Source: Selaginella tamariscina (lineage: Eukaryota > Streptophyta > Lycopodiopsida > Selaginellales > Selaginellaceae). Taken from it: DNA of 64,000 nucleotides. Below the pieces are notes generated by a model. It was not told where the DNA came from. It was given only the letters and a program-made list of their open reading frames with translations, and did not search any database. Below are positions 17,210 to 59,335 of this stretch, in pieces; position 1 is the stretch's first letter; the number at the start of each line of letters is the position of its first letter. The position numbers were made by a program, and so were the translations under genes. The stretch spans positions 310,001 through 374,000 of the forward strand of contig PUQB01000066.1 of the NCBI GenBank assembly GCA_003024785.1, written 5' to 3'.

Positions 17210-17919
17210 CCCCCCAAATTTAAGCTTTAAACTGTATAAATAATATTTGAAAATAAATTAATAATAAGTTAATAATAATTTGATGCTAAATAATTTTGAA
17301 AGTAAATAAAATTATAAATATATAAGTTAAGAATGTCCTAGTAATTTTGTTTGCAATATAAGCTTATATATATGTTATATATGAATTATATATATGTTAT
17401 GTATGAATATATACGTACTTGTAAATGAGTAAATACAACTTGTTTCTTGAGTCCTTAGACCTGCCTAATAGATAAAACAATTTGAGATTGATTTGGAAAA
17501 TAAATAAATAAATTGAATCGAAATTAAAACAATTTTAAAATGATTTTATTAGTTTTAATACATCTTTATATTTTCATGTCGTTACGGAACGAATATTCTT
17601 TATACCGCGGCAAATATTCCACATCACCATGGACAGAGAAAGTCACCATTGCAATGATGCAGTTAATGAGGTTTACTGAGACGCGTCAATTGCTGGTTGA
17701 AAACTATTTCCAACCCCACTCCACGTGTCTCCTTGGGGAGGCCGTGGAGAATTTCTGGAAGGCCTGGGTTGAATTACAAAAGAGCAATTGTTTCATATGC
17801 ATAATGTAATAATATGAGAAATGTCGCCTGATCATTTGTTTGGTGCGGACTATACATATACAGAACACTCGCTGCTGGTTAAAAACGCTATAAAACTCCA
17901 ACCAGACAAGTACAGATTA
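17210..17919. other. Spacer between U2 copy 2 and ATP synthase gamma
   Basis: The first part is AT-rich. From about 17590 base composition becomes more balanced, but no frame has recognisable similarity. It probably contains the 3' untranslated region of the minus-strand gene. Confidence 0.5.
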
Positions 17920-24173: not shown

Positions 24174-24307
24174 TGTTAAACAGGAAAACAGGAAAACCTC
24201 ACTTTTTCATGTTTAACCGTTTCCTTTCTCTCAACAGTAAAAAAAGGCTACACACTTTCTTTTTGTCAACTCTCTCCACAACACACACACACACACACAC
24301 ATATATA

Positions 24308-25177: not shown

Positions 25178-25664
25178 ATATATATATATATATCAAATCA
25201 CCTTCTCTCAATGCCACAATGACTGGTCTCCGAAGTCAAGGGCAAGAACGGATTTTGGTTATTGCCTTGTTAAATCCATTCATTAAGAGTATACATATCA
25301 CACACACAAGATCTTATAATATGCATCTTCATTTCTAACATGAATACAAGAGAACAAAGTGTGGAGACTCTCTCTCTCATGCTGGAACTTCTTGTGGAGA
25401 CCCTCTCTCATGTTAGAACTTCTTGTGGAGACCCTTCTCCCTTGCCCTAACTACCTCTTAATTACTCTTCCTCTCACCACGTCATCCTTTTATTTTTCCT
25501 TACTCACTTTTTTCTCTTGGTAAGGATTTTCCTCTTTCACAATCTTTCCTTCCATGCTTAATACAGACCTTCCTACCTTTATTCTCTCCATAATAGGACG
25601 TCCTTTGCTCCTAATATTTTACCTTTAACACTAACTCCTCCTTATTCTGTTGCTGTGTCCTTAC

Positions 25665-26479
25665 CATAGTTACGAACACGAACACGGAACACGAACACGA
25701 GCCTCAGATTTCAAGAACCTGACCACGGAACACAATCACGGCTCACGATGGCTCACGAATATTCTAGCTCACACATAATCACTTTTATATTAACCATAAT
25801 AAAATAAACCTTAATTAATTAATAAATAAAACTCAAAGAAATAATATGTATTTAAAGAAACATATACATGCCAAATTGTATACATTAACCTTAAATGTGT
25901 TTTTTATCAATATATAAGCTGGTTGCCAAAAACCTCTCTTATAAATATACTGCATTTTTCAAAAAAGAAATAAAATAAAATAAAATACATCATATACATG
26001 TCTAGCTTATATAAGAATATAATATTTGGATATGTTGTACATATTATCTAAAACTCCACGTTTTTACATGCTGTAGTTTAAATTTTATATAAATATGTGT
26101 GTGTGTGTGTGTGTGTGTTTATAAGTATTCTCATACATATATATGCAAATGTACATGATTATATATACAAAATTACCACCGTCGTGAAGAAGGATGCTTT
26201 CACAGTGTTGGATTGCTGCGCCATGCTTGTTGTGCCTTGGATTGCTGCTGCCGTTCCTGTGTGATGCCGTGCGCCCTAAAGTATATTCAACTAAGAATAT
26301 TCTAAATAGTGTTTATGTTACGAACACGGGCCGTGATCTCGGCCGTGCTCGCCGGGATCACGGCCCATGTTCGTAACATGACACACTGTTCACGAACACG
26401 GCCGTAGGAACACGACCCATGGCCGTGTTCGTGAAACACGGTGAACACGGCCGGGATCCCGACCGTGTTCGTAACTATG
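25665..26479. mobile_element. Non-autonomous hAT-type MITE
   Basis: An 815 bp element flanked by a perfect 8 bp duplication GTCCTTAC (25657-25664 and 26480-26487). The terminal inverted repeat is CATAGTTACGAACACG. Further copies of the GTTACGAACACGG theme lie inside, especially at 26318-26470, where inverted GC-rich repeats cluster. The 8 bp duplication fits the hAT superfamily. There is no transposase. It sits at the centre of the foldback element. Confidence 0.88.
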
Positions 26480-27089
26480 GTCCTTACGGCAACTATCCTA
26501 CTCCTTCCTTTGGATGTTGATCTTCATGGTGCTATGGATTCTCTCATGTTAAAGGTAAAATATTAGGAGCATAGGACATCCTATTGCAGAAATAATAAGG
26601 GTAGGAAGGTCTGTAGTAAGCATGGAAGAAAAGGCTGTGAAGAAGGAAAATCCTTACGGAGAAGAAAAGGTGAGTAAGGAAAAGGAAAGGAAAAAGGAAA
26701 AGGAAGTCTCGAAAGGAAAAGGATGACGTGTTGAGAGGAAGGGTAGTTAAGAGGTAGTTAGGGCAAGGGAGAAGGGGTCTCACAAGAAGTTCCAGTAGGA
26801 GAGAGAGAGTCTCCATGTTAGCAATGAAGGTGCATATTATAAGATATTGTGTGTGTGATATGTATACACTTAATGAATGGATCTAACAAGGCAATAGCCA
26901 AAATCCGTTCTTGTCCTTGACTTCGGAGACCAGTCATTGTGGCACTAAGAGAAGGTGTTTTAATATATTTATATGTGGAGAGTTGATAAAAAGAAAGTGT
27001 GTAGCCTTTCTTAAAGGTTCAGAGAAAGGAAAACGGTTAAACAGGAAAAGATGGGGTTTTCCTGTTTTCTTGTTTAACATCTTCTTTAC

Positions 27090-27733
27090 ACTTCTAAAGG
27101 TTGTTCTTCACTTTCCTAAATTCTTGGTTGGAAGTTGATACCTTAAGTTGCAGCATTTGATTTCCTGCATCTTGTTCCTAAGGATCAGCATTTGCTTTCT
27201 CTTCTTGTTCCTGAATAGTTTTTCCTTCCTATTCTTTTGGCTTCTTTTTCTGTTGATATTCACTTGCTTTAAAGGATTTGTGGTATACACATATGTATAC
27301 TTTGAAGGTTGTTCTTACAAATCAATCTTATACGAGATTGTTTTATATAACTTTTCTTGTAATTTAGGCATATTGTTTTCCTTCTGCTAAACAATTTTCT
27401 CTCCTTTCAGCACTACATAAAGGTCAATATCTGTTAAGCCCTTTAGATTAGGATATGCTTTTAGGATTTTTACATCTTCCTGATTATCTAACCCATTAAA
27501 CCAATTATATCCTTTTAAAATAAGAGGTTGAATTTCCTTTTTAACATATCTTTTAATATGATTATAAATCATTTTTTCTTCTCTTTTTTTACCATCATCT
27601 TTCATGTTCTTCCATTTTGAATAACCTTATCAAACTTAATCCATTGTCTGGATAAGAACATAGTGTATGTTGCATCATGTCCTTCCATTCGTAGGACTAT
27701 TAAGGATAATTTAAATTTAAGTTCTTTAACGGA
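27090..27733 (-). mobile_element. Fossil retropepsin-bearing element, part 1
   Basis: Old reverse-transcribing element on the minus strand, broken. Weakly retropepsin-like and charged coding remains lie at 27387-27733. The composite chromovirus at 27734-41440 interrupts it; its other side continues at 41441. Family uncertain (Ty3/gypsy-like or pararetrovirus-like). Confidence 0.45.
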
Positions 27734-28231
27734 TGTCACGACCCGATATAGGATATAGGATTCTGGATATAGGATACGGGTTACAGGATATGCCTAGAGG
27801 ATAAGAGACATGTGGACTCATCTTAGCCTCTGCATGCATGCAGCCACTTTTAATGCATGCAACCACTTTTAGCACTCATGCCTAGATTAGCTCTTGGAGT
27901 TGTGAGCATAAAAGCTCCGACCTAATTGTTGTACAATCAGTTACTATCAACACCAGTCTTACTACGATCAATCTTGTTTTGTCTTGTTCTTGTCTTGCTC
28001 CTTCTCTTGTTCCTTCCTTTTTGCTCCTGGATCCTGTCCTGTTCCTGTCTTGTTCCTGGATCCTGTCCTGCGCCTTCTTGTGTTGCTCCCGGATCCTATC
28101 TGTCCTGTCTTGCTTGGATCCTGTCTTGCCTGAGTTCCTAGTTCCTGTCCTGCTCTCTGTCCTGCTCCTGAGTCAAGCCTTCTTGTTCTTGGAATCCTGT
28201 TCTCTTCTTGGTTCTGGATCGTGGCTTGACA
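27734..28231 (+). repeat. 5' LTR of copy A
   Basis: About 498 bp, TG...CA ends. The promoter-like part holds GAGCATAAAAGCTCCGACC (TATA-like, conserved in all LTRs here). The downstream half consists of degenerate CCTGTCTTGCTCCTGGAT-type repeats, which explain the different LTR lengths. Confidence 0.9.
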
Positions 28232-40599: not shown

Positions 40600-41440
40600 T
40601 GTCACGACCCGATACAGATACAGGATTCCGGATACAGGACAGGTTGCAGGATTCCTACAGGATTGATACAGGATAGGTGCAGGATTCCTACAGGATATCC
40701 TATCAGGATTCCGGACACAGGATTCTTGCAGGATATTCCTACAGGATATGCCACAGGATATGCCTAGAGGATAAGGGACATGTGGACTCATCTTAGTCTT
40801 ATGCATGCATGCATGCATACTATATGCACTCATGATGCCTAGATTAGCTTGGAGTTGTGAGCATAAAAGCTCCGACCTAATTGTTGTACAATCAGTTACT
40901 ATCAACACCAGTCTTACTACGATCATCTTGTCTTGTCTTGTTCCTGTCTGTTCCTGTCTGCTCCTTTCCTTCCTGTTCCTGGTCCTGTCCTGCTCCGGAT
41001 CCTGTCCTGTTCCTGTTTGCTCCGGATCCTATCCTGTGTCCTGTCTTGCTCCCGGATCCTATCCTATCCTGTCCTCTTCCTGGATCCGTCCTGTTCCTAT
41101 TCCTGGTTCCTGTCCTGCTCTCGGTCCTGTTCCTGAGTCAAGCCTTCCTGTCCTTGGAATCCTGCTCTCTTCCTGTTCCTGGATCGTGGCTTGACCCTGG
41201 ATCCTATCCTGTTTCTGTCTTTCTCCCGGATCCCGTCCTGTTCCTGTCTTGTTCCTGGATCCTGTCCTGCGCCTTCCTGTCTTGCTCCCGGATCCTATCC
41301 TGATCCTGTCTTGCTCCTGGATCCCGTCATGTTCCTGTCTTGTTCCTAGTTCCTGTCCTGCTCTCGGTCCTACTCATGAGTCAAGCCTTCTTGTTTTTGG
41401 AATCCTGCTCTCTTCCTGGTTCCTGGATCGTGGCTTGACA
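40600..41440 (+). repeat. 3' LTR of copy B with internal duplication
   Basis: Starts TGTCACGACCC. The GGATCGTGGCTTGAC end motif occurs twice, near 41182-41196 and 41426-41440, so the last roughly 245 bp are a tandem duplicate of the CTGGATCC-repeat half. Confidence 0.85.
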
Positions 41441-42060
41441 TGAACCTCCATTTATTAACACTCTCTTTAACTTATTCCTGCCCACATATACTGTAATGCA
41501 AGGAACTTGTCCATCATAATCACCTTCATACAATACTTCTTTATCCATTTTACAAACTGTATATCCTTCACTTGAAGGTGATGTTTATTGAACTAGATTT
41601 AATGCATTTAATATCTAATTTCTTATATAAGGACTATCGGTATCAGCTATCCAAGCGTAACATTTACCTCCTAATTTATAGCTTGGTGATACATGGAGTC
41701 CATTGTTTTATCCTGTAATGGTAAAAATAAAAAACCTTGTTTACCTTTGTCTATAGCATCTTTGTCTGTACCTTCTGATTCGTTATCAATCTGACCTTTT
41801 TGGTCAGGATTCTACTCTTGCTCATTTACATTTTCTTGTAACAAACTCATTTTCTTGTTAGGAATAATATTTATCTCTCCTTCTCCATAACAAGAATATT
41901 CTTTCTTATTCCCTTGAAGAGCTATAATTGCCCTTGTAACGGGTGGATACTCATCTTTTCCCTTTTCTATTTAAATTAACCGTGTTGTAGGTTGCACATT
42001 AGTCATCTCAATAGAAGTAGGAGGTTGTACATTCTGCCTAGGAGATGTCCTATTTCACCA
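41441..42060 (-). mobile_element. Fossil retropepsin-bearing element, part 2
   Basis: The other side of the old element interrupted by the composite chromovirus. On the minus strand, charged and protease-like coding remains lie within 41441-41830. It is broken and old. Assignment rests on weak protein resemblance. Confidence 0.4.
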
Positions 42061-42670: not shown

Positions 42671-42704
42671 ATCATATATGCACGTTGTAACTAAAGTGGG
42701 CATG
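42671..42704 (+). repeat. Left inverted end of the large element
   Basis: The reverse complement of this stretch shares CATGCCCA, TTTAGTTACAAC, TGCATATAT and GATG with 57256-57293, with few mismatches and one small gap. Confidence 0.65.
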
Positions 42705-42965
42705 ATACGTGAAAATGGGAATATAAAATAAATTACTAATTAATACTTAAGTTTTAATTATTAATTAATCATTTAATTAATATGTAATTAAGCCTTAAAT
42801 ATTAATTAATTAATTAATTAATTCTTCAATAACCTTACTTAGTAAGGAATATTCCTAAAATATCTTAGAATATTCATATTATTCTAAAAATAGTTTACAA
42901 TAATGAAGAAATATTATCAAACATAATTACAAATGAAATCATTTTCTTATCAACATATTAATTTT

Positions 42966-44138
42966 TTATAAATACTTTCTTTCTATCATACAAAGAAATC
43001 TTTTCATTTTGTCTAAATCATCACTCTCCGGATTAATCAAATCATTTTGGTCAATATCTTGATGTTGTTGCCACCACTTAACACTCTCACGAATGCAATT
43101 GGGAGTTGCCATCCTTGTTAATACATAAGATGTGATAAGAGAAGGTCTGCATAAAGGCTCATCTAAAAACTGACATTCCTTAAGAATAATATTATAAAGC
43201 GCCCGGTTGCTATCCTTCATTTTATAAAATTCAATATCACGAGAAAGAAAAGCTTCAGGAAATGTATGATACGGTGGATACTGCTCACAAAAATTTTCGA
43301 GATTCTTCTTTCTGAGGCACGTATCCAAGTAGTTCACTAGCTCATCCATGATATCGGTATCAGAATATGGATCGAAAGTGATTGGATGAATACAAGCAAT
43401 GTTTTGGTTGAGCATAGCCTTCTGAGGAGAGTCGTCTACTACTAAGATATGTGCATTCTTCGTTATCCTTAAGCGACTGATCTCCCCATGAGTCCCAATT
43501 ATTCTTTCATTCTTGAAGAAGTATGGCTTGCTTTCCTTTCTTATATTGTGAAATTCGAGAGGTTTATGACACATTCGCTGGTCAAAATCCAATCTTTACG
43601 AATCACCTCTTCTGCAACACTACAATGTTTCTTAAGTAAACTCAACAGCGGTGTTAAGTTATGAATCTGCATGCATGACCAAATCCCCACAAGCGCACCC
43701 ATCTCCTTAAGCTTTTGAAAGAGACGATCCAACCCTGGACGAAAAATAATATCATATCGAAATTTACCATGACAAGGAATGAAATCTCCTTGTTTGATTT
43801 CTGTTTTTCTATCCTGGGGCCTTGTCGATGAAGCAGAACACCATTGACATCCAACAACACAATATGGCCATGAGTAACATGAGATAGCGTTGCCTCTTGA
43901 ATACTTTGCAAATCACTTGTTTGCTCCCTTTCACATTTATCCGTTGCCACTATTTCGTTGCCTATCCCTTCATCATTTAATTGTACATCATCCTTACAAG
44001 ATTCAGATATTGCATGCGCTGAAGAAATTGATTTCGGAACTGAAGCCAATAAAAATGATGATGCAAAAACTGAAGTGGCCCCATGGTAACGATGTTTTGA
44101 GCTGCATTATTATCCATTTCCTGCATGAACTCTGTCAT
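42966..44138 (-). CDS. FCP1/NIF-like HAD phosphatase-like protein in the large element
   Basis: Single-exon locus of about 390 residues, crossed by a few frame slips (near 44075, 43740 and 43600). A low-complexity acidic N-terminus is followed by the HAD motif I HIVLLDVNGVLLHR near 43850, then GLDRLFQKLKE and GALVGIWSCMQ near 43690, and motif III/IV-like HILVVDDSPQKAMLNQN near 43420. An unassigned C-terminus has PNCIRESVKWWQQHQD. The DVNG plus DDSP.KAMLN pairing is that of plant NLI-interacting-factor phosphatase relatives, in which the second Asp of DxDG is Asn, so catalysis is doubtful. FCP1-type enzymes act on phospho-Ser of RNA polymerase II; nothing shows that here. It may be a cargo gene captured from the host. 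Confidence 0.7.
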
Positions 44139-44421
44139 TCTGACATGTGGCACAAGAAATTGTCGCCAAACCCCTCTCTTACCTCATGGCAATGCTGAAA
44201 ATCCATGTTCTCAATTATTTCATTACATCTGCAAAATGATAATTAGCTGACCTTAAAATTATCAAGGTATATTATTTACCTTGTTAATGTGTGACCCATG
44301 TTTGAACTAAAAGCTTCATTAATCCTTGAGAATTTATTTTCTGTACAAATATAAAAGAAATATACAAAAATGCCTTATGTTACACTCATTTACAACTATT
44401 CATCACTCTATCAATTCATTA

Positions 44422-47400
44422 TCAATTCTTCTTCGCTATTACCTTCTGAATGAGGCGAGAAGGTCTAAGCCGCTTGTGAGATGGTTCAAGATCTTCTGCA
44501 TCTTCTATTGATGTTTCCATGGGTCCTGGAGTGTGCGAATGTTCTGTACTCCTCGAGATAACTTCCGGTCTAATATCTGATTGATGTTCGTTCTCAGACT
44601 CCGAGATTGAACCAGATTCACCTTCAGAGCTATCGCACTTATTGGAGGGAACTTTCTCAAATACGCCTTTTGGATTCGTTGGGGTACTCAGTTGAGACCC
44701 AATCTATCCACTTGTTCAGGTCCTCAACCATGGTCTTATCCTTCTCAACGGCAAACACACATGTATGCCGAAGGTAACACTCCTTCAAGACGGACCCCCT
44801 AGTGCAGTAGTCAAAAACCCACGCATCACTGTGAGGACCCCTGATCAAGTTGACGATGCTCCGTGCCGCTTGACTTGTAATGTTTGGATAACGTACATTG
44901 CCGAATACGTCACTCATACCTATCGGTGTATCGGATGGAGGTTCAGGGCCGTTGGAGTGCAAACAGATGCCTGGCCAGTCATTTGGAAGCTTGAAATTGT
45001 TTGGCACATTCCTAACAACCAAGTGAACAACAGTATCAATGCACTTGGGATTAGCATCGTTCATATAAAATCCTGTCCAACGATGTTTTTTCTTGGCGAA
45101 GGCAAAGGCAAAAGTATCGGTGACATGAGCAAGAATCAAGAAATAAATACCTGAAAAAGTAGGTATCAGTGAAGAGCGCAAGCATGAATTCAATAATAAC
45201 CTTCTATGTATATGCTTGCACGGCTAAGTTTCTCCACCAGATCCTCTAGTGCCCTATCTGTCGAAAGATTTTTTGACACCCGCCGATCCATCACGAACAA
45301 TTGAAACGGTTTCCTAAAGCAGTGATGTTACCCCATAAAGTCTCCGAATCTAACAACAAACATCTGTAGGGCTTGTTTCGTGCATCCTCCTTTATAAGGT
45401 TCAATTCGGTTCTCCGCTGCTGAAGGACTGCCATAAGAGAGGCGTCATCCCAATGTTCTCCTTTTTGGCGTTGGCGTGCAATAGATTTTGCCTAGATCTT
45501 CCGATTGGTTCACCCATTCGACAAGCATATCATCGTTCGTCACATGCAAATATTTGCTAACCTCTTCATATGTTGAAGTCGAGGTCCAACCCAGTTTGTG
45601 GCAGTGTATTCCCAACCACTCCTTGAAATGCCTGACCGTCTTCAACTCCATTGCCTTGAGATGAAAAGGAGAGGTTGGGCTGCTGTTATTAATTTGTAGT
45701 TTACCATCAATCACCAAATCAGCCAAGACTTCCATCTCCTCCATCGTTGTTCCATTTAAAGGCTTCAACCATGTGAGCTTGAAATCGTTGTCTACATCCT
45801 TTGTAGATTAACAGACTTAGCCTTCGGCGTCTTACTGGGTTTCTTTGCAAACTTTTCTGAGGGCTCCCCTTCACTTGTCTGCTTCTTCTTCAGTGTTCCT
45901 TTTGAAAAGGATTCCATAATCCCCAACCATTTGGCAAAGATCCTATCTTCGGGGCAAGAAATCAACATCATCAGAAATGATGTTTCCTTCCCGCCCACCT
46001 GGGCAAAATCAACTGCTGCAATTTCTTCAACTCTCTGAGGAAAAAGACAGATTAATATACCGGCGAGATAAATCCCGCCCAAACAATTTGCTTACCCGGT
46101 ATTCCGCAGATTGTGTATTCCCTGCGGTAGCTCTTTTGTGGTCGTGAAGAGATTCCCACACGGCTCGCGTGTGTTTAAACTTCTCCCATATTTTGCTGTT
46201 GTAGTGGTTGGTGTCGGCAGCGTCCCATTCCGCCGATAACTTATGGTACTGCTCGATTGTGAGATTCGGCTTAGCTAAAAACGCCGATCTTTTTGTCAGC
46301 TTCTCACGGGTATGCTCGGAAAGTTTTGTTGCCATCGTTCCTTTGTTGTGTTCATCGAGAAGTCGTTGGGCTGCCGTTATTGTGTGCTGGCCACTAATGA
46401 TGTAGTACTTGATAGATCTTTTATTCTCCGTCTGAATCTTCATGAGTTGTTCTGGTGTTGTGATCCAGACTTTGTCAGCACCCTTCCTTCTTTCATAGTA
46501 TGGACACAAAACAGCATTATGTGGAACGGTATAAGAATTGTTCCTTCATCTTCTCCATGAGCTCAGCTACACGTTCCTGGTTGAGTGGCCTGTAATTGAA
46601 GTTTGGGTTGACGCTGCAATATTTAACCCTACAAGGATAAATCTTATCATCCAACATCATTTCCTTGTGACTTATTGCAGCATGAGATGCCACAGGTGCA
46701 GCTGACAAAACGATTGATGATTTTCTTTTGCGATCCGAATCAACATGTGTGATCCCCGACTGCAGCTGTTCTAGTGTTCTCGGCACACTCTTCCAGCTCC
46801 CGAAGCTTCCTAAGCAAATTGAACGTGATCTGTAGAGAACCTGAGACCGAGCCACCCTCTCAATCTCTCTTATGATGTCGCTGTGTTCTTCTTCAATGTG
46901 AAGAGGGAAGATTGCTCCACTTGCTGATTTTCTGTATTGTGAAGCAATATCTCCTGACAATACACCTACTCGATGAGTCTGAAGATCTTCGAAGTAGACA
47001 TCCAGATGGATCCCCTCCATAGATGGGCTTTCGTTGAGTTGAAGAAGAACTCCAAGGTCAACATCATTAGTGAACACGTGAACGTCATTATCCACAAGTC
47101 GACAAAACCACCCGAGATTAATGTTGTAACTGACGACCTCTGGATCCGAGAACGTGACATTGGATGGAACAAGGCATATCTGTCGAGCATCGTCCAATCT
47201 GGGTTCGCAGCCTGCTTTCGGGTGCTTGACTAGCGAATCTACTTTCCATTGTTTTGCTTGTCCATGAGATGTGACAGAGGTTAATTTGACAGCAACCATG
47301 GTTGCTCCAATGCGCTTCCCATTTATCTTAAAATATGGCCAAGTTGATTCCAGAATCCCCCTGCCCATCTCTTCTCCTGCTCTTGTCTTTAATGTCACTT

Positions 47401-47534
47401 CAATTCCACATCTGAATACAAAAATGATTAGTTCAAGTATCCGAGTATAACAGATTTTATTTTAATTCTTACCCAGAATTTGACGACGACTCCATACTAA
47501 TGACTCGATCTCCTTGTTTGATCAAATCGTCCTT
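44422..47534 (-). CDS. ParB-like domain protein with methylase-like C-terminus in the large element
   Basis: Spliced minus-strand locus with clear exons 47473-47534 and 46096-47411 (61 bp intron 47412-47472), then a 61 bp intron 46035-46095 and further exons to a stop at 44422. An upstream first exon is likely but not found. The N-terminal region (GDRVISMESSS, WPYFKINGKRIG) is unassigned. Around 46370-46640 lies a ParB/sulfiredoxin-like core: RPLNQERVAELMEKMKE, then VLCPYYE, then YYIISGQHTITAAQRL, which mirrors the ParB GEHRxxAA box. Near 44700-44860, WVFDYCTRGSVLKECYL...FAVEKDK resembles DPFxGSGTT...GxExD of N4/N6 DNA methylases, with the SAM-binding glycines partly lost. About five frame slips occur, mostly in A or C runs. 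It may be two genes. Function is inference: a DNA-binding, possibly palindrome-reading protein. Confidence 0.55.
46062..46079. repeat. Array palindrome inside a 61 bp intron
   Basis: GGCGAGATAAATCCCGCC, one variant copy of the array palindrome, lies within intron 46035-46095 of the ParB-like gene, away from the arrays. Confidence 0.85.
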
Positions 47535-47636
47535 CTGCAAAATAATACACTATAAAATAAATTATATAAAAACGCACACACACTTGTATAAACCCGAATA
47601 TACAAAAATAATACACAGAGAGAAGTAGACGTAATT

Positions 47637-47722
47637 AACTGTCCGAAGCTCACATTTGTGTTAGTGCAAAAGAAAGATAACATTTCGTTTTAGAACCACC
47701 ACAAATGTGAGTCTGGACAGTT
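47637..47722. repeat. Hairpin-forming inverted repeat upstream of the ParB-like gene
   Basis: Arms 47637-47660 and 47700-47722 (AACTGTCC, then CTCACATTTGTG on the left; CACAAATGTGAG, then GGACAGTT on the right) with a loop of about 39 bp. It lies about 100 bp 5' of the first recognised exon. It could be a protein-binding site or a small-RNA-like stem; no miRNA evidence. Confidence 0.7.
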
Positions 47723-48042
47723 TTACATAGATTCCTATCTTTTACTCGAAATATTATGATAAGATGAATAAAAAGTAAATAAAATGAGATATGCAACTTA
47801 TATATACTAATACACATATATATTCACATGAAAAATTAATCTCGCCACCCCTTCAATGCCTCCTGAAAGAGTGGGCGGGATTAATCTCGCCACCTTTCTG
47901 GAGGCCTTGAACGGGAGTGCGGAATTAATCTTGCCACCCTTCTCGGTCTCAGAGAGAACTGGGCAGGATTTATTTCTTACACCCCTTCAGTGACTCCAGA
48001 AAGGAGGCGGGATTAATCACGCCCACCATGTAAGGGATGGTT

Positions 48043-48172
48043 AAATGAATCTCGCCACCCTTCCCAGTCCCCTCCATTGGTATGTTGTAAACCTTCTACG
48101 TCTTAAACAGAAACGTTTGGGATTGGTCCAACTCACCAATGGAGGAAAAAGGGAAGGGTGGCGAGATTCATT
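48043..48172. repeat. Inverted repeat pair within the left array, copy 1
   Basis: Arms 48043-48081 and 48135-48172 are complementary (AAATGAATCTCGCCACCCTT with its complement; CCTCCATTGGT with ACCAATGGAGG). A related pair at 48547-48677 shows this larger hairpin was itself duplicated about 500 bp away. Confidence 0.85.
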
Positions 48173-48546
48173 TCTCCAACAGGCATTGAAGACTCAGCGG
48201 GATTAATCCCGCCGCCCAGGGCCTTCACTCGATCCCTATGCGGTGGGATTAATCCCGCCGCCTAGGCACTTCAGGCAGGCCAATGGCGGCGGGATAAATC
48301 CCGCCCGATTTCGCGCAGGGAATTGGCGTCCGGCGGGATTAATCCCGCCTCCCAGGCCCTTCACTCGGGCCTTAGTCGGCGGGATTAATCCCGCCGAACG
48401 GCAATGCCCTGTGCGAAATCTTGCGGGATTAATCCCGCCGCCTAGGCCCTTCAGGCAGGCCAATGGCGGCGGGATAAATCCGCCCGATTCCGCGCAGGGC
48501 ATGTTACGCGACGGGATTAATCCCGCCCACCATGTAAGGGATGGTG

Positions 48547-48677
48547 AAATTAATCCCACCCCCTTCTCAGTTCCCTCCATTGGTATTTTGTAAACCTTCT
48601 CCGTCTCAGACAGAGTTAGTCGGGATTGATTCAACATACCAATGGAGGAAAAAAAGAAGGGTGGCGGGATTAATCCC
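48547..48677. repeat. Inverted repeat pair within the left array, copy 2
   Basis: Arms 48547-48583 and 48638-48677 again carry CCTCCATTGGT and ACCAATGGAGG with the array half-sites at the outer ends. It is a duplicate of the hairpin at 48043-48172. Confidence 0.85.
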
Positions 48678-49257
48678 ACCACCGAGTAATGAAGGTTCGG
48701 AGAAGACTAATCCCGCCGCCCTCTCAAAAATCATGCACTCACACATATATATTGGCTGCGGCATTTTGAACAGGGATGGGTGGGGGCGGGATTAATCCCG
48801 CCGCTTATATCCTGCGGAAGTGCCTGAGCGGCGGATTAATCCCGCCGCTTATATCCTGCGGAAGTGCCTGAGCGGCGGGATTAATCCCGCCGCCCTCCGC
48901 GAAGGGCATGAGCGTGGGGCCGGATTAATCCCGCCGTTCATGTCCTGCGTGAATTCCCTGGGCGGCGGGATTAATCCCGCCGCTCTACGAAAACCGAAGA
49001 GCGGCGGGATTAATCGCGCCGCCCATCCCTGTAAATGCCCTGCACGGAATCCGGCGGGATTAATCCCGCCCATTAGAACCTTCACACAGGCCATTGCCGG
49101 CGAGATAAATCCCGCCGCATTCCGCGCAGGGCATGGGTGAGCGGCGGGATTAATCCCGCCGCCGAGGCCCCAACCATATAGCGCGGGATTAATCCCGCCG
49201 CCGAGGTTATAAACCTATAGCGGCGATTAATCCCGCCGCCGAGGGGCTTAGCGAGAT

Positions 49258-50073
49258 AAAAACACACACATATATATATGTGTGTGTGTGTGTGTATATA
49301 TATATGTATGTATGTATGTATGTATAGGAGTGTACGTGTGTGTGCAAGAGATAGATAAATAAATAAAAATTATACAGTACTGGTACACCTAATATATGTG
49401 TGTACATAGGTATATATATGTGTGTATATGTATATCGTGTGATGCGTGTGAGCGAACAAATAAAATCATACAGATAAACAAACACACACACACACATATA
49501 TACACACGGAGTGCGTGTGTGTGCGAAAGATAAAACTAATAAATAAATAAATTATACAGATAAACCACACACAATATATGTGTGTATATAGATATATAAT
49601 CTATAGAGAAAGAGAGAGAGTCTGTGAATATATAAGCATATATATAAACTAGTGTTGTATGTATGTATATATGTATATAGGTTATATATATGTGTATATG
49701 TATTTGTGTGTATGCGTGTGTGAGCGAAACAAAATAAAATCATACAGATAAACAAACACACACACACACACATATACATACACGGAGTGTGCGTGTGTGT
49801 GCGAGAGATAAAACTAATAAATAAATAAAATTATACAGATAAACACACACATATATATATGTGTGTATATAGATATATAACCCATATGAATATATAAGCA
49901 TATATATAAACTAGTGTTGTATACTATTTGTTAATATGCATTGATATATATATATATATTGTGTGTGTGTGTGTATGTTGTGTGTGTGTGTGTGTGTGTG
50001 TGCAGTGCGCGTGTGTGTGGGAGAGATAGATCAATAAAAAAAAATTTACAGATACTGGTACACATAATAATAT

Positions 50074-50119
<46 letters not shown>

Positions 50120-50382
50120 GCAGTGTGCGTGTGTGGGAGAGATAGATCAATAAAAAAAAATTTACAGATACTGGTACACATAATATATGTATGTATATAT
50201 GTATATAGGTATATATATATGTGTATATGTATATCGTGTGTATGCGTGTGTGAGCGAAACAAATAAAATCATACAGATAAACAAACACACACCCACACAC
50301 ACATATACATACACAGGAGTGTGCGTGTGTGTGCGAGAGATAAAACTAATAAATAAATTTATACGCACACTCCTATACATAT

Positions 50383-50413
<31 letters not shown>

Positions 50414-50420
50414 GATCTCA
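49258..50420. repeat. Microsatellite block (CA/TG/TA)
   Basis: Several direct repeats of a roughly 250-300 bp module built of TG, TA and TGTA tracts. Each module includes a GAGAGATA(GA/AA)...AATAAATAAA...ATACAGATA phrase. Open frames here are low-complexity translation, not genes. Confidence 0.9.
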
Positions 50421-51020
50421 CCTGTGTGCACAGCCGCCGCCGCCGATTTCACAGCCGCCGCCTTTGAAACCCTAAGAATATACCTAAACCCTAAAGGAAT
50501 TAAATATTATATTAACCCTAATAGAATATTCCTTCTGAGAATATACTTAAACCCTAAAAAGAATAAAATATAGATTCGCCCTAAACGAATATTCTTTCAT
50601 TATATTATTAGCGCGTGCGTGTGCGTGGGTGTATACATACACCTCAAAAATATAAATCATGCAGGGATTTAACATGTGTGTGTCCATGAGAGTGTTAAAG
50701 TTTCATGTGTATCAATACATACATACACATTGCATATATTAATACACATAATATATACATACACACGTGTATACACACAGACATACACACATATTAGTAC
50801 ATAATATTAGAGAGACCGAGTACATATTATAGATCATGCATGGTGTATATGTTTGAGAGAAGAGAGACAGTATATTAACATGGATCATGCATGGTGTGTA
50901 TGTATGAGAGAAGACAGAAAGTACACATATATACATACAGAGTACACATATATACATGCACACGTGTATACACACAGACATACATACATATTACATGAGT
51001 AAATTCATTGTGTTACATAT

Positions 51021-51050
51021 TAGGGTTTAGGGTTTAGGGTTTAGGGTTTG
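51021..51050. repeat. Interstitial telomere-type repeat
   Basis: Four TTTAGGG units in a row, the plant telomere sequence, in the middle of the large element. Single AAACCCTA-like words also occur at 50465-50560. Confidence 0.9.
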
Positions 51051-51339
51051 CTCCCAACAAGCTTAATATAAATATTACACATGTAAATTCAATGTGTTAC
51101 ATACAGTCACACAGATTGAGTACATATATCATACATGCGTTGAACATGATGTTTTCAATAAAGAAGCAACCTATTTCTTCAGTTTGGTTTAGGGTTGTGC
51201 ATGTGTGTGCATATGTGTTTTTGTAAGTTCTTGTAATGCGTGTGTAAATTTATGATTGTGTTTATATATGTGTGCAAAACAAACATCGAATAATTAAGAA
51301 AATAATATTAATAAACACACTAGGAACATATTTTAAATT

Positions 51340-52000
51340 ATACATAATAATATATGATTTTATCTAATATATAGCCATATATAGTTTTAATAATATATAT
51401 TAATTTAATATTGATAAAAAGGTTTAACATTGAAATATTCTTGAAATAATAAGAAATTAATTGAGAAAATCCCATTAATATATACAAATGTAAATTAAGT
51501 ACTCAAATAATTAACTAAATTAATTATCATAATCATGTTTAATATTGGAATATTCTTGGAATAATAAGAAAATAATAAAGAATATCCCATTAATATAAAG
51601 AAGATTAATTACTCAAGTAATTAAGGAAATGATATTAATATATATATTATTAAAACTATATATGACTATATATTAGATAAAATGATGTATTATTATGTAT
51701 AATTTAAAATATGTTCATAGTGTGTATTAATTTAATATTGATAATAAGGTTTAACACATGAATATTCTTGAAATAATAACAAATTAATTGAGAAAATCCC
51801 ATTAATATATACAAATGTAGAATAATTACTGCAATAATTAAGAACAAGACTAATTTAATTATGATAATCAGGTTTAATATTAGAATATTCTTCAAATATT
51901 AATAAAATATTAAAGAATATCCCATTGATACTAGGAAATGAAAACTAAATACTCGAGTAATTAAGAAATAATAATAATAAACAGACTATGAATATATTTT
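51340..52000. repeat. AT-rich direct and inverted repeats in the core of the large element
   Basis: A block near 51404-51490 recurs near 51728-51820 (TTAATTTAATATTGATAA, then AATTAATTGAGAAAATCCC). Between them an inverted pair near 51346-51400 and 51635-51700 shares TCTAATATATAG, ACTATATATG and TATTATTAAAACTATATAT-like phrases. A third decayed block lies near 51860-51930. No coding potential. Confidence 0.75.
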
Positions 52001-52399
52001 AAATGATACATAATAATATATCAATTTATTTATTGTATAAGTATATATTTATATATATATATAATATAAATATACTTGAATACTAAGAATGTAGAATATA
52101 GTCTAAAATTTCGTAATATTAAACAGCTTGAATCACTTGAATAACATTAAATGCAATTTTAAAATACTCATTGGAACTGGAGAGTATATATGTCAGAGTG
52201 TCGGATATTTGTGTCAACTCATCTTAAATTTTATTTTCTGTTCTTTTTAAAAAATTTGAATTTCTGACATATGTATTGTCGGTCTGACATGTAAATTTGA
52301 AAATGCATTTAATTTCCCACTCAAATTCAGATCTGGTTCTTTCTCCGGCAAGGGTTTCTTCATTTCTGTATTTTTCACTCTTTAGATCTTCTTTTTTCT

Positions 52400-52481
52400 T
52401 CATAGTGATCATCTCAGGGGCGAGATTAAATTGGGTGCTATTCTTTATAGGAAAGCACGGCGCCTTCAGTGCTGTTTACAA
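52400..52481 (+). other. Possible first exon of the transposase-like gene
   Basis: A GT donor (GTAAGTATT) follows 52481, and the acceptor before the main exon is TTTATGTGCAG ending at 53653. If joined, the right palindrome array lies inside a first intron of about 1.17 kb. This is inference from splice signals and position; the exon may be untranslated. Confidence 0.35.
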
Positions 52482-52655
52482 GTAAGTATTATAAACAAAT
52501 TTAAAAATACTTATAAAGATTCACTCTCTTACATTCTCTCTTAAAATTACAATTTAGGGGTTTAGGAATGCATTAGGATTATAATATATTCCGTTAGGGA
52601 TTTATCCCGTTTAAATATCCTTTTAACTTAATATTCTAGGTTAACCGGGCCGGCG

Positions 52656-53512
52656 GGATTAATCCGGCCATTTCTTTTTGGCCTCTTCGAAGAGGTGGCG
52701 GGATTAATCCCGCCACCATCTCCCGGGCAATGCTTCTCCGCCACTGAAAAAGAGTGGCGGGATTAATCCCGTCGATAACCTTCTCAACTGATGAAGAGTT
52801 ACCAGAATTTATTAGAAAGAGTTGTCGGCGGGATTAATCCCGCCAACCATTTTAGGAGGCAGGGAAGGGGTGGCGGGATTAATCTCGCCACCACTTCCCT
52901 GTTTTAAAGATTTGGGGACAGGATTATCCCGAGATCTCTTTGAAATCATAGTTTTGGAGAGAGTTATGTGCGGGTTTAATCCCGCCACCCATTCCCCGTC
53001 GTAAGAATTGTGGGCGGGATTAATCCCGCCTTGGACTCCCTCCGACAAGGAAGAGCCGGCGGGATTAATCCCGCCTCTTCCTCCTCGGGGGAGTCCGGCG
53101 GGATTATTCCCGCCGACTCTCTCCGGCGAGGATGAGTCGGCGGGATTAATCCCGCCGGACTCCCCCCGAGGAGGAAGAGGCGGCGGGATTAATCCCGCCG
53201 GCTCTTCCTTGTCGGAGGGAGTCCAAGGCGGGATTAATCCCGCCGACTCTCTCCGAAGGGGTTGAGTCGGCGGCGGGATTAATCCCGCCGACTCCCTTCC
53301 TCGTCGGAGAGAGTCGGCGGGATTAATCCCGCCGGACTCCCCCGAGGAGGAAGAGGCGGCGGGATTAATCCCGCCGGCTCTTCCTTGTCGGAGGGAGTCC
53401 AAGGCGGGATTAATCCCGCCGACTCTCTCCGAAGGGGTTGAGTCGGCGGCGGGATTAATCCCGCCGACCGTTCCTCGTGGAGGGATTCGTGGGCGGGATT
53501 AATCCCGCCCAT
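52656..53512. repeat. Right array of GGCGGGATTAATCCCGCC palindromes
   Basis: About 18 copies at 30-60 bp spacing; those from 53000 on are nearly perfect and share spacers such as GACTCTCTCCGA and GAGGAGGAAGAG. Spacers occur in both orientations, so larger palindromes are nested here. It ends about 140 bp before the transposase-like coding exon. Confidence 0.95.
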
Positions 53513-53660
53513 CAGTTGTATTAATCAAACATGAGATATTATCTCTAAACATAATTATGTATTATTGCATATGCATATTAAGTAACCGTAATTCAGATTT
53601 CTTAGAAATATTGCATAAACAGATATCATAAATAATACAATTATTTATGTGCAGGACAAT

Positions 53661-56600
53661 ATGTTTAATACTGGAGATAAAGTATGTCTTCTTCGGAACA
53701 ACGAGATAGTTGGCACTGGAACTGTGGAAGTTCGAGATAATAATGCATCATGTCACAATATTGCCCAAGGATCTTGTGTGTACGTATGGGTGAACACCAT
53801 TTACAAGTATGTTGAGGTTCTGGGAATGGAATTTGAGGAGGGTTCTCCTGTATTGTGGAATTTGGATGAAGTCAAGGCTGACACAGAATATGCAGAGTCA
53901 CAAACAAATAGTAGCACGAGTTTACCAGATGATGGCTTGCCTGCTGTAATGGATGAGGTGATTCTCTTTCTTCGTGAGATTGAAGTCGGAAGAGGCATCA
54001 TCACAGCTATAAATCCAATGGAAGCAGTGTCAGAAGAGAAACTAGGGTCCGACTTCGTGGGTGTAGTTGTGACAGAGGTTTCACCTAATGGCACATTGTA
54101 TCCTGGATCCCTCGTGAGGTGGCGAACATCTGAATTAAGACGGCAAGATGGTTCAACATATTCTGGGTTGGATTTCAATAATAACAACCCGGAAGAACAA
54201 CTCATATTTGAAGAGGTTCCTTGCATTGGTCCTATTGTAAGAAAAAGGCGATTCATGGGTTGTAGATCTTCCCCTGCAAGTTTCAGCAAGAGGGTAAAGA
54301 TGGATCCTACATCTTCCGAAAGTGTTACGAGCATTTCCACGATTGACTGTTGCAAGAAGAAGTGTTGTCAGATGGCAGACCGGAATGAAATTACCCAATG
54401 TAGACATGTCTTTCGTATGCTCACCCAAAAGCAAAGGCATGAGTTTGTATATGCTGCACTAACTGGGTGTATTGATGGAATGGCCTCGGACACAGGTTAT
54501 CAGAGTACATCCATGGTATTTAATAAGGTGGCCATCTGCTTCAAAGCTTGGTACAGTATATACGGGATCCCAAAGACCACGTTCTACCGTCGGAGGGATG
54601 AGTGGCTAGATGGAGCGCGAACCTCAGTTCATGGGAACACTGGCTTGGTCAAAACCCGCTCTCACATCATGGCAGCCATAGAGATACTCAAGGCTTTTGT
54701 GGAAGCAAATGCAGACAGGATGCCTCACAAATGCCGAACCACAAATGCAGGGGTCAGGGAAAATCTCAAGGTTTTACCTTCAATCTACACTCAATTGAAA
54801 CTGTGTGAACATGTGAACAAGTGCCTCAGTTTGATGGGGCTCCAAGCAATCTGCACTGGTACCTTCAACAACATATGGAATACTCATTTTAAGGATGTGG
54901 AGATTGCAAAACACTCTAGCTTTTCTAAGTGTGACACTTGTACATCATTGAAGGCTGCAGAGGCTTGTGCAAAAACCTTGGTGGAGATCACTACCATTCA
55001 AAGGAAGATGGAGGCCCACATGATTGCACAACAAACTTGCCGGTCTCAGTACTATGCACACCGCATGCTTTCTGTGTCACGCCCATCAGAGTACCTGTGC
55101 TTGATCCATGACAAGATGGATCATTCAAAGACCAGCATTCCAAAGCTCTTTGCAACACCAAAGTGCCTTGGAAATGTCATGAAACTTCCGATTTCATTGA
55201 CAGGTGTGCTAACACATGGACACGGTTGTGAGTCATATGGACACTTTTCACTTCCACATTGGTCTAGCGACTCCAATTTCACTATTGGGTCGTTAGCCAT
55301 GTGTTTAGAAACCTTGAAGCCCACTCACAGACAAGTCCTATCAGTGATCTCAAAGTGAAGAAACAACACCTTCAACCTTTACATAATGCTCTCATGAACA
55401 CATCTGCACTTGAGGCTACTTGGGAATATGAGAGGCATTGTCAGCAACCTGCACAAAAAACAGATGGCCCTGTTGAGAGTTCAGGTTCAGTGGAGGGATC
55501 TAGCTCAAATAGTGTACATGTGTCCTCAACATCAAATAAGCTTCCTCGTCATTTGCTTTTACAGATGGATAATTGTGCAGGCGAGAACAAAAATAGGTAA
55601 ATCATTTTACTTAAGGGTTTCTCAAGCTCATACTTACTTTTATTTTCTAGATATGTGCTAGCATACTTGTCAATGCTTGTTGCCAAAGGTGTGTTTGAAA
55701 CAATCACGCTCAGTTTCCTTATGGTTGGTCACACTCATGAAGATATTGATGCGTTCTTCAGCAAGGTCTCCAACTCTACAAAAAGGACAAGTGCACTTAC
55801 CTTACCGCATATGATGAATCTTTTTGAAAATTGCATCTCCAAAAAAAGTTGTGCTTTGCTTGTGACTGAGGTGCCAGACTTCAAAAAATTTCTCAAGGAG
55901 TATATAAAAGAAGGGAGTGATTCTTTAGTTGGTCACCTTGTGCCGCTACAATTCTTTTTCTCCATACGAGATGGTATACCTATTATGCAGTACAAGTTAC
56001 GGCCATCAGAGCAGGAGTGGTTACCGAAAGAGGGCTTAATGCTCTTCAAAAGTGGAGAGGATGGAAAGCCACTTCTCCCAGAAGGACAACCAGACCCTAT
56101 TCCATTGAGTGCCCAGCTCAAGGAACAAGAGGTTATTATTGATGGCATCAAAAAATATGTGGCATGGGTTCAAAAATCGATGCCAAAGAATTCTGATAAG
56201 GCAACTGGTTACTCAGAACTATATAAGCATGTGGTCAACTATTGGGAGACTGTTGTTCGAGAGTTGGAAGGGCCTACTGTCACAAGTACAGAATTGCAAC
56301 ACCCTTTTTGGCCTAAAACAAGGTGGCGAGAGGAGATTGAAATGACATCACTGAGCACAGACGACATAGAAGCCAGTAGTGATGTGGAAGTGCAAACCCC
56401 ACATTTTGTTGGACAAAGGAACCAAAAACCTAAAGCATACTTTGATTGCTGCAAGGATCTTCAAAAACTAATGATGGTTCTCATTACTCCAGATGCGTCA
56501 TATAATCAGCCTATTTGGATGGGTCAAATTATCGACACACCTGAAGTAATCACAAAAAATAGTATTGTTAAGGTTGCATGGTTCAAACCACAAAAAAGGC

Positions 56601-56779
56601 GACACGAGAAGGAGAGCGAAAGATATAATGGATGCCTAGAGAAAACATGGTCTCCCAATCAAAAAGACCCAGCATGTTTTATAAATGTTAAATCCATTCG
56701 ATATGGGTGGATGTCAAGAAGCGTTGATAAAGTCACGATTAACAAAACTGCAAGGGAATGTATGTTTTCTGAAGCTTAA
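53661..56779 (+). CDS. DDE transposase-like protein with DUF7869-like core
   Basis: Main exons 53654-55596 and 55651-56779, with a 54 bp intron; about 1,020 residues. The start is 53661 because the earlier ATG at 53649 overlaps the splice acceptor. One frame slip lies near 55330-55350. An N-terminal region with GDKVCLLRNNEIVGTG is followed by a Cys-rich patch CCKKKCC, a conserved YGIPKTTFYRRRDEWL, and a CDTC motif near residue 430. IHDKMDHSKT near residue 483 holds a candidate first Asp, LLQMDNCAGENKNR near 635 a second Asp, and VGHTHEDIDAFFS near 675 the acidic third residue; the last two are about 40 apart, as in RNase H-fold transposases. The C-terminal part (IWMGQIIDTPEVI, KVAWFKP) resembles a small chromatin-type beta domain. 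The role as the element's transposase is inferred; the DUF name is from memory of the DNCxGENKN...HTHEDID pattern. Confidence 0.75.
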
Positions 56780-57255
56780 AGCAATTACAAAATTATAAAA
56801 TATCATATATTTAATATTCATAATTATTATAAACTCTTTAATAATAGTACCAAATTGTATACTTAACTATATAAATTTAAAAAAATGATATGGAAGATTG
56901 ACTATATTATTATAGGATTTTATATATATTATTACTACTACAAATTTTTAATTAATAATGTTATATTTAAATATTAATATTTTAATAACAACATCAATAT
57001 TTATATAATGTACCTCTTATGCTCTTCCTTAATTGTTATATTAGGCAATATATTATATAATTTAATACATTATCTTTTATAATGTTATTAATTTTTGTTC
57101 AATGAATGCTATAATTTATTAAAGGGTAGAATACAAAATAGAATATTCTAAAGAATATTCTCTTTTCAAATATATTCTAAAGAATATTCCTTTAATATTA
57201 GAAAATGCTAATTAAATAGCTAAAATTGCTAATTATTAGGAAATGGGACTATAGC
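56780..57255. other. 3' flank of the transposase-like gene
   Basis: AT-rich. GAATATTC/AGAATATTC-type words recur near 57140-57200, also seen near 42850 just inside the left end, which may be subterminal repeats. Confidence 0.4.
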
Positions 57256-57293
57256 CATGCCCATTTTAGTTACAACTTGCATATATACAATGA
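57256..57293 (-). repeat. Right inverted end of the large element
   Basis: Inverted partner of 42671-42704. Outside the matched part the two flanks differ, and no equal short direct repeat is adjacent. Confidence 0.65.
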
Positions 57294-57521
57294 TGAGTGG
57301 GCCAACTTAAATATGATGGATACCAATTTGAACAAGTATGGCATGTATAGTTGAGTGTCCAATATATTCAATAATGAGATAGATTATCAATATCTCTATT
57401 AGCTTTATGATTTTCTCGACAATAATATACTTATACAATGTACTTATACATAACCTAGACTTAAGGTTAGCACTTAATGACAATATAAGTGTGTGTCATA
57501 GACAAATGTTTTACTAAGTAA

Positions 57522-59332
57522 GGGTCGTTTCGCACCACACTTAACTTAACTTAAGTGGGCTTAAGTAAGGGAAAATGGATTCGTACTCGCCCTTAAGTTG
57601 AGTAACCACTTACTTAACTTTTTTAAGGGTTTGACCACTAAGGGAATTGAATTCGCACTTGCCCTTAACTTAAGAAGCCACTTACTTAAGATTTTTTAAG
57701 GGTTTGACCATTAAGGGCAGTGCTTTCACAACCTTCCCTTAACTTAACTTAATTTAAGGGAACAATGAAAATTTGTAAAGAAAATTTAAGGGAGGTGGGG
57801 GGGTCCCTTAGCCACCCTTAACGACCCACAAGGCTCGCCACCTTCTTTAAAATAAAATATAAAAATAAAATTTTACATGCGTAATGTGCATTTTTTAATG
57901 TAAAATATATATTTATATTTTAAATATAATTTGAAATTAAATAAATAATAATATGAATTTCTCATTATTCTTAGTATATTCTAAGTATATTCTTCTTCTG
58001 CCCTAATTTCTGCCCTAATTTATGTAGGTTTCTGTGCATCGAGAGAAAAGAATTCAGGAAGAAATCGGGAGAGAATGGCAGAAGAGCAAGCAGATCAGGT
58101 AGTCTTCTTTCCTTTCTTCTTCTTTTCTTGCATTCATTTGCATCATTTGCATCAGGAGGCGGCCATAGAGACTACTAGGTTCACCATTCGAGCTCAAGGG
58201 GTGGCCCAAAGCCCGATTGCAATTGCTGTTGGGCTTTTAGCCGCCCTGGTTGGGATGGCACGAGCTCGGCCAGCATTGGCCGAGCTCATGTGCTGGCCGA
58301 AAGCCCGGTAGCAACTGCTACCGGGCTTTCTATCCACCATAGCTGGTTCATGGCCGGCCGAAAAGCCCGGCAGCAACTACTGCTGAGCTTTCTGCCCACC
58401 ATAGCTACCGGGTTCATGGGCTGGCCAAAAAGCCCAGCAGCAACTGGAATTAATTTGTTTTACTTGGAAATTAATTTGGAAATTGTTAATTTATGTTTTC
58501 TTTATTATTTTTTTTTTACCACAGTAAATATCATGTGTTAAAGATAAACGTGAAATATGAAAAAGGATGTATAACTAGAAATAGAATATATTTAACATTT
58601 TTTATTAAATAAATAAAAATATGAAATGCAAATACATGTATACACACATTGTTAACGCACATGCATATGTATATATAATATTTTTTATGAAGTTTTTACT
58701 TGTTTAAACATATCCAAAATATATAAAATTTAATTATCTATAGAATGTACCCATATACAATATTATATATAAGTATATAATTTTATCTCACCATATTTTT
58801 ATTTTTTATAATAAGTAAAATTACTTTAAATGTTAAGAAAAAATTAAGGATGCACATTATATTTAAATCATAAATATTATAAATATATTTTAAAGTGATT
58901 TTGAAATATTTATTACAAATTGAAAAATTATTTAAAAATATTTATTATAACTTGACATAATAATGTTAAATTAAATGTAGATATGTTAAGTTCATTAAAA
59001 TAATTAAGTTAATAATCTTAACTTAAATGTAAATATAAAAATTATTATATTAAGGGCAATATTCGAATTCATGGCCCTTAATATTTTTATTGTAAGTATC
59101 TATGCGAATCCATTGCCCTTAACATAATCCCTTAATTTAAGTAAAAAAGTTAAGGGTTGATGAGTGCGAATCAATTACCCTTAACAAATTCCCTTAATTT
59201 AAGTTAAGGGTTAGTATGAATTCAAAACCCTTAACTTCTCTTTTAAGGGAGAGTTGGTGTGAATCAAATGCACCCTTAACTTTACTTAACTTATGCATGC
59301 TAAGTTAAGTTAAGTGTGGTGCGAAACGACCC
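57522..59332. mobile_element. PIF/Harbinger (Tourist)-like non-autonomous element
   Basis: 1,811 bp with terminal inverted repeats GGGTCGTTTCGCACCACAC and a TAA duplication (57519-57521 and 59333-59335), the hallmarks of PIF/Harbinger. Subterminal regions on both sides are packed with CCCTTAACTTAA/TTAAGGG words. The interior holds a short open frame (58075-58311, MAEEQADQVV start) and a GC-rich stretch at 58190-58440 with a roughly 80 bp unit (TGGCCGAAAGCCCGG...AGCAACT) repeated three times, perhaps a captured host fragment. No transposase was recognised. Confidence 0.85.
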
Positions 59333-59335
59333 TAA

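Follow-up and report, generated by a model that had tools for sequence, protein, structure and literature searches.

A high-copy DNA transposon of Selaginella tamariscina with arrays of an 18-bp palindrome beside its genes

We analyzed a 64,000-nucleotide stretch of the Selaginella tamariscina genome (assembly GCA_003024785.1, contig PUQB01000066.1, positions 310,001 to 374,000), referred to here as the window; coordinates are positions within it. The window contains one complete copy of a DNA transposon at 42678-57282 (14,605 bp). We are practically certain that this is a high-copy, recently amplified element whose ends are fixed, whose target duplications are 4 bp long and whose two gene blocks are divergent. 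Each gene block is preceded by an array of the same perfect 18-bp dyad, GGCGGGATTAATCCCGCC. We further propose that the element encodes a transposase with a DUF7869 domain, and a ParB-like protein that binds the arrays and thereby controls or shields expression of the element. Taken as a whole, we consider this combined proposal to be evenly balanced between right and wrong.

Ends, copies and age

The element is bounded by 27-bp terminal inverted repeats, ATGCACGTTGTAACTAAAGTGGGCATG at 42678-42704 (+ strand) and ATGCAAGTTGTAACTAAAATGGGCATG, read on the - strand, at 57256-57282. These were identified by inverted-repeat comparison, in which 29 of 31 bp are the same between the two ends (E 3e-10), and by an end scan. 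With a 25-bp end and up to 7 mismatches allowed, the scan of the window returned the two ends at 0 mismatches and one additional match with 7 mismatches. Comparison of the end pair revealed ATAT immediately outside the element on both sides (42674-42677 and 57283-57286). An earlier, sequence-only reading, made without database searches, had proposed a single element with inverted ends at 42671-57293. The inverted ends and the single element are upheld, but the exact limits lie 7-11 bp further inside.

Across the genome (300.7 Mb in 1391 contigs), the 25-bp end pattern is found, with up to 3 mismatches, 2389 times in the forward and 2272 times in the reverse orientation; the reversed control pattern is found 0 times. 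In most copies the two ends differ from one another at the same two positions, and hence left and right ends can be distinguished. A few copies have GCAT variants at their ends. From the first matches listed, all of them 0-mismatch ends, we took whole 10 facing end pairs that are 12-15 kb apart. For 9 further pairs, 10-22 kb apart, we used the flanks only. Together with the window copy, these are the 11 copies and 20 end pairs referred to below. ATGCA is present at both ends in 18 of the 20 pairs; in C1a and C21, another dinucleotide precedes GCA at one end.

The 10 other whole copies are 11.9-15.4 kb long, and all 10 have the gene order of the window copy, with matches to the DUF7869 protein, to the methylase-like part of the ParB-like gene and to a HAD-like protein. 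The ParB-like part was matched in 9 of them, and the tenth, C1b, has a run of N at this place. The two gene blocks are thus not always apart, as they might have been were this not one element; both are kept in every whole copy. Just outside the ends, an exact 4-bp duplication is present in 10 of the 20 pairs, including the window copy, where by our arithmetic chance would give ~0.1. Contig C80 has two left ends, and this count uses the inner one. One copy on C80 is inserted into another, 249 bp in from its left end, with a duplication of ATAA. The corresponding place is unbroken at 42916 of the window, and likewise in 8 of the 10 other copies, and so represents a direct empty site; C1a has two extra bases there, and C1b has no match. 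Hence both lines of support that the sequence-only reading had pointed to, copies ending at the same inverted repeats and empty sites, were found, in the genome-wide ends and in this self-insertion, respectively.

How recently has the element spread? In two comparisons, substitutions in the gene regions amount to 1.0-1.5% or 1.2-1.8% between copies. Like the palindrome comparison described below, these cover 9 of the 11 copies, with C1b and C2a excluded for their runs of N. Gene divergence of only 1-1.8% indicates that the spread was recent. By blastn, the window element is 86-91% identical to each copy over summed, partly overlapping pieces; in our reading, the arrays and simple repeats make up most of this divergence. 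Indels are common between copies (0.0035-0.0055 events per base), and frame breaks are frequent and differently placed from copy to copy. A conserved host gene, that for the chloroplast ATP-synthase gamma subunit (named by reading; ~18300-18420, - strand), has a single frame break, suggesting that the assembly itself carries indel errors. Frame breaks in the window copy may likewise be assembly errors. We did not accept decay as their demonstrated cause, since a host gene is broken too, the breaks differ between copies, and the best-scoring ParB-like candidates in the genome, described below, are free of internal stops. More generally, the frame break in the ATP-synthase gene is a warning for claims of frameshifts in this genome. 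A genome search with a piece of the ParB-like protein gave 4950 candidates, the best 150 of which are 96-97% identical with 0 internal stops in the match, and so copies with an intact exon exist; at least 20 of these 150 lie in open frames of at least 477 codons. A fragment of an older relative, in two pieces that are 75-80% identical, is located at 23389-24173 and has a stop in the methylase-like frame.

The two gene blocks

The DUF7869 gene, on the + strand at 53661-56779, has a 54-bp intron (55597-55650) and one frame break at ~55280-55345. Its second piece matches the Pfam profile PF25273 (DUF7869) with 94.1 bits, and its first piece with 24 bits, below the cut-off of 26. The protein has two unnamed database relatives, with 34% and 31% identity over 95% and 78% of its length. 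The strings IHDKMD, LQ(L/M)DN and GHTHEDID are invariant between it and these distant relatives, and supply D, D and E. Among the 11 copies, the first string is present in all and each of the other two in 9, and the misses fall in broken copies (C7 and C14; C1a and C14). Judging from these features of its sequence, the DUF7869 protein is very probably the DDE transposase of the element. Among its distinct changes, 49 of 134 are synonymous (p 0.015); for this and the later counts, 9-10 copies were set against the window copy in trimmed pieces of the exons. In this small set, the second exon shows no constraint (ratio 1.08). One of the relatives, P0001, has a precomputed PF26133 label that hmmscan did not list.

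The ParB-like/methylase-like gene, on the - strand at 44411-47495, has several exons, and was delineated from exon reading, motifs and purifying selection. Its frame is broken in the window copy, and longer open frames are present in other copies. Introns of 61 bp at 47412-47472 and 46035-46095, together with the 54-bp intron of the DUF7869 gene, fit GT..AG and join frames by reading, in agreement with the earlier suggestion that the genes are spliced with introns of 54-61 bp. The second of these 61-bp introns contains one palindrome (46062-46079). ParB/Srx proteins have the motif G-[QE]-[HR]-x-x-x-A-A, which GQHTITAA, found in 9 of the 11 copies, fits by pattern only; in C29 a frame break is followed by GQHNNGSP, and C1b has N there. 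In N4C/N6A DNA methyltransferases, motif IV is (D/N/S)PP(Y/F/W) and motif I is FxGxG. Aligned by eye, the place of motif IV reads MDRRVSKN rather than DPPY in 11 of 11 copies, and that of motif I reads DYC.RGS in most copies and YYCTRGS in C1b, 10 of 11 together; it was not found in C7. With the catalytic DPPY and the S-adenosylmethionine-loop motif missing in this alignment, binding is expected rather than DNA methylation. We think that the methylase-like half seems to have kept its fold and lost its methylation activity. Purifying selection nonetheless acts on the gene: synonymous changes make up 73 of the 140 distinct ones, versus 27% expected (p 4e-10), and the methylase-like exon has a nonsynonymous/synonymous (N/S) ratio 0.31 of neutral. 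Scans of the element's proteins against PHROGs and NCBIfam gave only chance-level matches, and sequence searches of the PDB gave nothing useful. The N-termini of the DUF7869 and ParB-like proteins share a short similarity (11 of 37 positions identical, E 2e-4), perhaps reflecting a common domain.

The third gene (42966-44150, - strand) encodes a NIF/HAD-like protein, which we consider an accessory of the element; frame breaks split the window copy, and the start of the gene is uncertain. The piece in the window matches PF03031 (NIF) with 19.7 bits (E 7e-4), just under the curated cut-off of 21.8, and two other copies pass with 31.7 and 40 bits. Phosphatases of the NIF/FCP1-like HAD kind have a catalytic DxDx(T/V). 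The protein of the element departs from this: its nucleophile motif is LLDVNGVL, with DVNG in 11 of 11 copies and the second Asp replaced by Asn. Thirteen of 41 distinct changes are synonymous (p 0.38), and the last piece of the gene shows no constraint in this small set (ratio 1.09). Thus, the gene content proposed from sequence alone (a transposase-like, a ParB-like plus methylase-like and a phosphatase-like protein) is supported by profile matches for DUF7869 and NIF, whereas "ParB-like" and "methylase-like" are motif readings that profiles do not support. We retain these two names on the strength of the motifs and of described algal proteins, because profile libraries recognise neither part.

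The palindrome arrays and their possible roles

The window has 41 palindrome sites with up to 3 mismatches, 20 of them exact, and all are within 46062-53509; the mean in 50 shuffles of the window within 100-bp blocks is 0.0. At up to 4 mismatches, array A has 24 sites (47874-49237) and lies in a predicted leader intron of the ParB-like gene (47536-50421), for which both splice-site strings are present in 7 of the 11 copies. Array B has 18 sites in the palindrome scan (52652-53509), and lies in a predicted leader intron of the DUF7869 gene (52482-53654, + strand), with both strings in 9 of the 11 copies. Hence the arrays precede both divergent gene blocks, as the sequence-only reading had claimed. 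Between them is an AT-rich middle, rich in simple repeats (49260-52640; GC 0.276 at 50001-52000), where splice-site strings predict two leader exons and where the divergent promoters are presumed to be.

The 11 copies have 384 palindrome sites, 209 of them exact, with 14-46 per copy (mean ~35), and start-to-start spacing clusters at 44-46 bp. In 9 of the 10 other copies the lone intronic site recurs at a distance of 3358-3453 bp from the left end; it is missing in C1b, where the run of N lies. Genome-wide there are 27,128 exact copies of GGCGGGATTAATCCCGCC, and 0 of the control. Of the first 100 palindromes listed, all on contig 1, 86 have a listed element end with 0 mismatches no more than 12 kb away, as compared with 10% of the contig 1 stretch they span.

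Between copies, palindromes differ by 4.5% and the surrounding spacers by 12.9%. Since units are perhaps aligned out of register, and both rates are above the gene rate, this contrast supports constraint only weakly. The least variable positions are 6, 8, 11 and 12, and the most variable are 1, 5, 9 and 14, with 29, 26, 34 and 40 changes, respectively, in the 384 sites. Changes of CCG (CHG-context) cytosines are common, positions 14 and 5 together having 63 C>T or G>A changes, and CpG transitions are rare, with 14 at positions 3, 4, 15 and 16; these counts include shared ancestry. Inverted copies of array spacers, 77 bp long and 95% complementary, are present at 53010-53512, as if segments flip at palindromes. 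A virus or virophage origin was considered and rejected: when viral contigs were scanned with the second exon of the DUF7869 gene, with the piece of the ParB-like protein and with the DUF7869 alignment, no relative was found. The palindrome occurs in one viral contig, where it is a lone site within a longer inverted repeat; we take this to be chance.

What is the functional significance of the arrays? We suggest that the DUF7869 transposase would move the element by cut-and-paste, and that the ParB-like protein would bind the 18-bp palindromes as dimers. It would then coat the two arrays, which are within or close to the predicted leader introns and the presumed divergent promoters, and the coated arrays could drive, time or shield expression of the element against host silencing. 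Such a self-recognition system would be ParB/parS-like or VANC-like. Members of the ParB family bind short palindromes. Being conserved, resembling that family, and being of a kind proposed to bind and modify its own element (PMC12477816), the ParB-like protein is the best candidate binder; we put its being the binder at a little under an even chance. In a more specific version, which is possible but on the unlikely side, an element-borne parS-like system operates in which the ParB-like protein, with its non-catalytic methylase-like module, spreads over the arrays and so maintains expression of the element or prevents its silencing.

Several observations weigh against the combined proposal. 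The link to the palindromes is at most indirect for every protein, and the leader introns are predicted from splice-site strings only. ParB family profiles were not matched in Pfam (up to E 10) or in NCBIfam and PHROGs (up to E 1), none of the profile libraries searched recognised the methylase half, and the ParB N-part and the methylase part found no relatives in the protein database at E 0.001. Palindromes diverge more between copies (4.5%) than genes do (1.0-1.5%), an excess that we put down to array turnover and to units aligned out of register. Lastly, the exact 4-bp duplication is missing in the other 10 of the 20 pairs, of which none has a longer duplication and one has 3 bp. Recombination, wrong pairing of ends or errors in the assembly may account for these pairs.

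Could another protein bind the palindromes? In En/Spm, short repeats in the ends bind TNPA, and the palindromes might similarly be sites for the DUF7869 transposase that help to pair the ends or to repress its own promoter. One array is directly before the transposase gene, and the N-terminal similarity of the two proteins means that either could bind. However, the arrays of the window copy are 5.2 kb and 3.8 kb from the ends, unlike subterminal sites, and both face promoters; we consider this explanation unlikely. We give the same low standing to binding by a host factor, with the palindromes acting as an intronic enhancer. GGCGGGA resembles an E2F half-site, and TAATCC a homeodomain site. 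The window copy has GGCGGGA, TCCCGCC and GATTAATC 30, 35 and 36 times, respectively; moreover, the arrays are within predicted leader introns, and variation is lowest close to the centre of the dyad. Nonetheless, 27,128 exact copies of the full dyad exceed what such half-sites need. Against E2F in particular, the arms (positions 1, 5 and 14) vary more than most of the centre, although central position 9 varies as well.

Two further explanations do without a binding role for the arrays, or without loss of methylation, and both seem to us distinctly improbable. The ParB-like/methylase-like protein could still methylate DNA and so mark the element itself, a role that has been proposed for an Ectocarpus protein (PMC12477816). 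The pairing of domains and the placement on the opposite strand are the same as in that paper, and the constraint on the methylase-like exon also speaks for this; the replacement of DPPY in all 11 copies, and of DPFxGxG in 10 of 11, argues against activity. Alternatively, the arrays could be functionless by-products of palindromic units that expand by recombination or replication slippage. This is consistent with the duplicated and inverted array units, with array length varying between copies, and with the excess of palindrome over gene divergence. It fits poorly with palindromes changing less than the spacers between them, and with the persistence of the lone intronic palindrome at nearly one offset.

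Related systems and significance

To which superfamily does the element belong? EnSpm/CACTA elements have CACTA-like termini, which the ATGCA ends do not resemble. Sola1 elements have a 4-bp target-site duplication, the length found here. Sola1 is listed in Physcomitrella by a review (PMC9033089), and another paper gives duplications of 8 bp for hAT (variants 5-7 bp) and 3 bp (0-3) for PIF/Harbinger, together with Zisupton lengths (PMC12730594). At 4 bp, the longest exact duplication is too short for hAT/KDZ and differs from that of PIF/Harbinger. Hence the claim that the element matches no plant superfamily is sustained for hAT/KDZ, CACTA and PIF/Harbinger, but the 4-bp duplications fit Sola1.

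With bacterial ParB/parS, the element shares a GQHxxxAAxxLL-like motif and clustered, short, perfect palindromes. It differs in having no Pfam ParB match, a different site sequence, a spliced gene, and no ParA-like gene that we could see among its open reading frames (ORFs). Similarly, the VANDAL/VANC transposons of Arabidopsis encode a protein, distinct from the transposase, that reportedly acts on numerous short motifs in their own non-coding DNA; their protein and motif are different, and anti-silencing is only proposed here. The closest arrangement is that of Sola1-1_Ec32 of Ectocarpus, a giant DNA transposon of 21.5 kb with a 1104-aa accessory protein, ParB-like plus N4C/N6A methyltransferase, encoded on the opposite strand to the transposase (PMC12477816). 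The likeness is one of gene arrangement and duplication length. In contrast to Sola1-1_Ec32, the present element has degenerate methylase motifs, an additional NIF/HAD-like gene and a land-plant host, and the part of that paper available to us mentions no palindrome arrays. TET/JBP genes ride fungal DNA transposons of several superfamilies, and are likewise accessory genes related to DNA modification, but they encode a dioxygenase rather than a ParB-like/methylase-like protein, and their hosts are fungi (PMC12730594).

The sequence-only reading called the element apparently undescribed. This applies to the palindrome arrays and the land-plant setting, but transposon proteins with ParB-like and DNA-methyltransferase parts have already been reported in algae, and are cited for green and red algae (PMC12477816). 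In the literature searched, we found neither palindrome arrays nor a land-plant setting for such elements, although descriptions of Bostrychia or Sola may hold an earlier mention. Judged by title and the start of the abstract, none of the papers in that literature that join Selaginella and ParB is on a transposon. We found no mention of DUF7869 by name in the literature searched. As far as that literature shows, the land-plant setting, the arrays as candidate recognition sites, and the placing of DUF7869 in an element with defined ends and duplications of 4 bp are new.

Other features of the window lie outside the element. Two U2 small nuclear RNAs (snRNAs; 13737-13930 and 17016-17209), one U4 snRNA (17645-17769) and a tRNA-Met (15389-15460) are within ~4 kb. 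Long arrays of TCCTGTTCCTGG-like units, in inverted arrangement, are present at 24300-28200 and 40900-41450 beside ORFs that are Gypsy-like by reading. A different small element is perhaps marked by an exact inverted repeat of 33 bp (57521-57553 and 59301-59333) that lies just beyond the right end.

What does the element mean for transposon biology? DUF7869, a domain of unknown function, can now be placed within a transposon that has defined ends and target duplications of 4 bp. For the algal ParB-plus-methylase proteins, the DNA target is only guessed at in the available part of PMC12477816. The present element offers a concrete candidate target: an 18-bp dyad with 27,128 exact sites in the genome. 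If the parS-like explanation were true, transposition would have seeded ~27,000 exact docking sites across one genome. The idea of transposons that recognise and mark themselves thus becomes directly testable.

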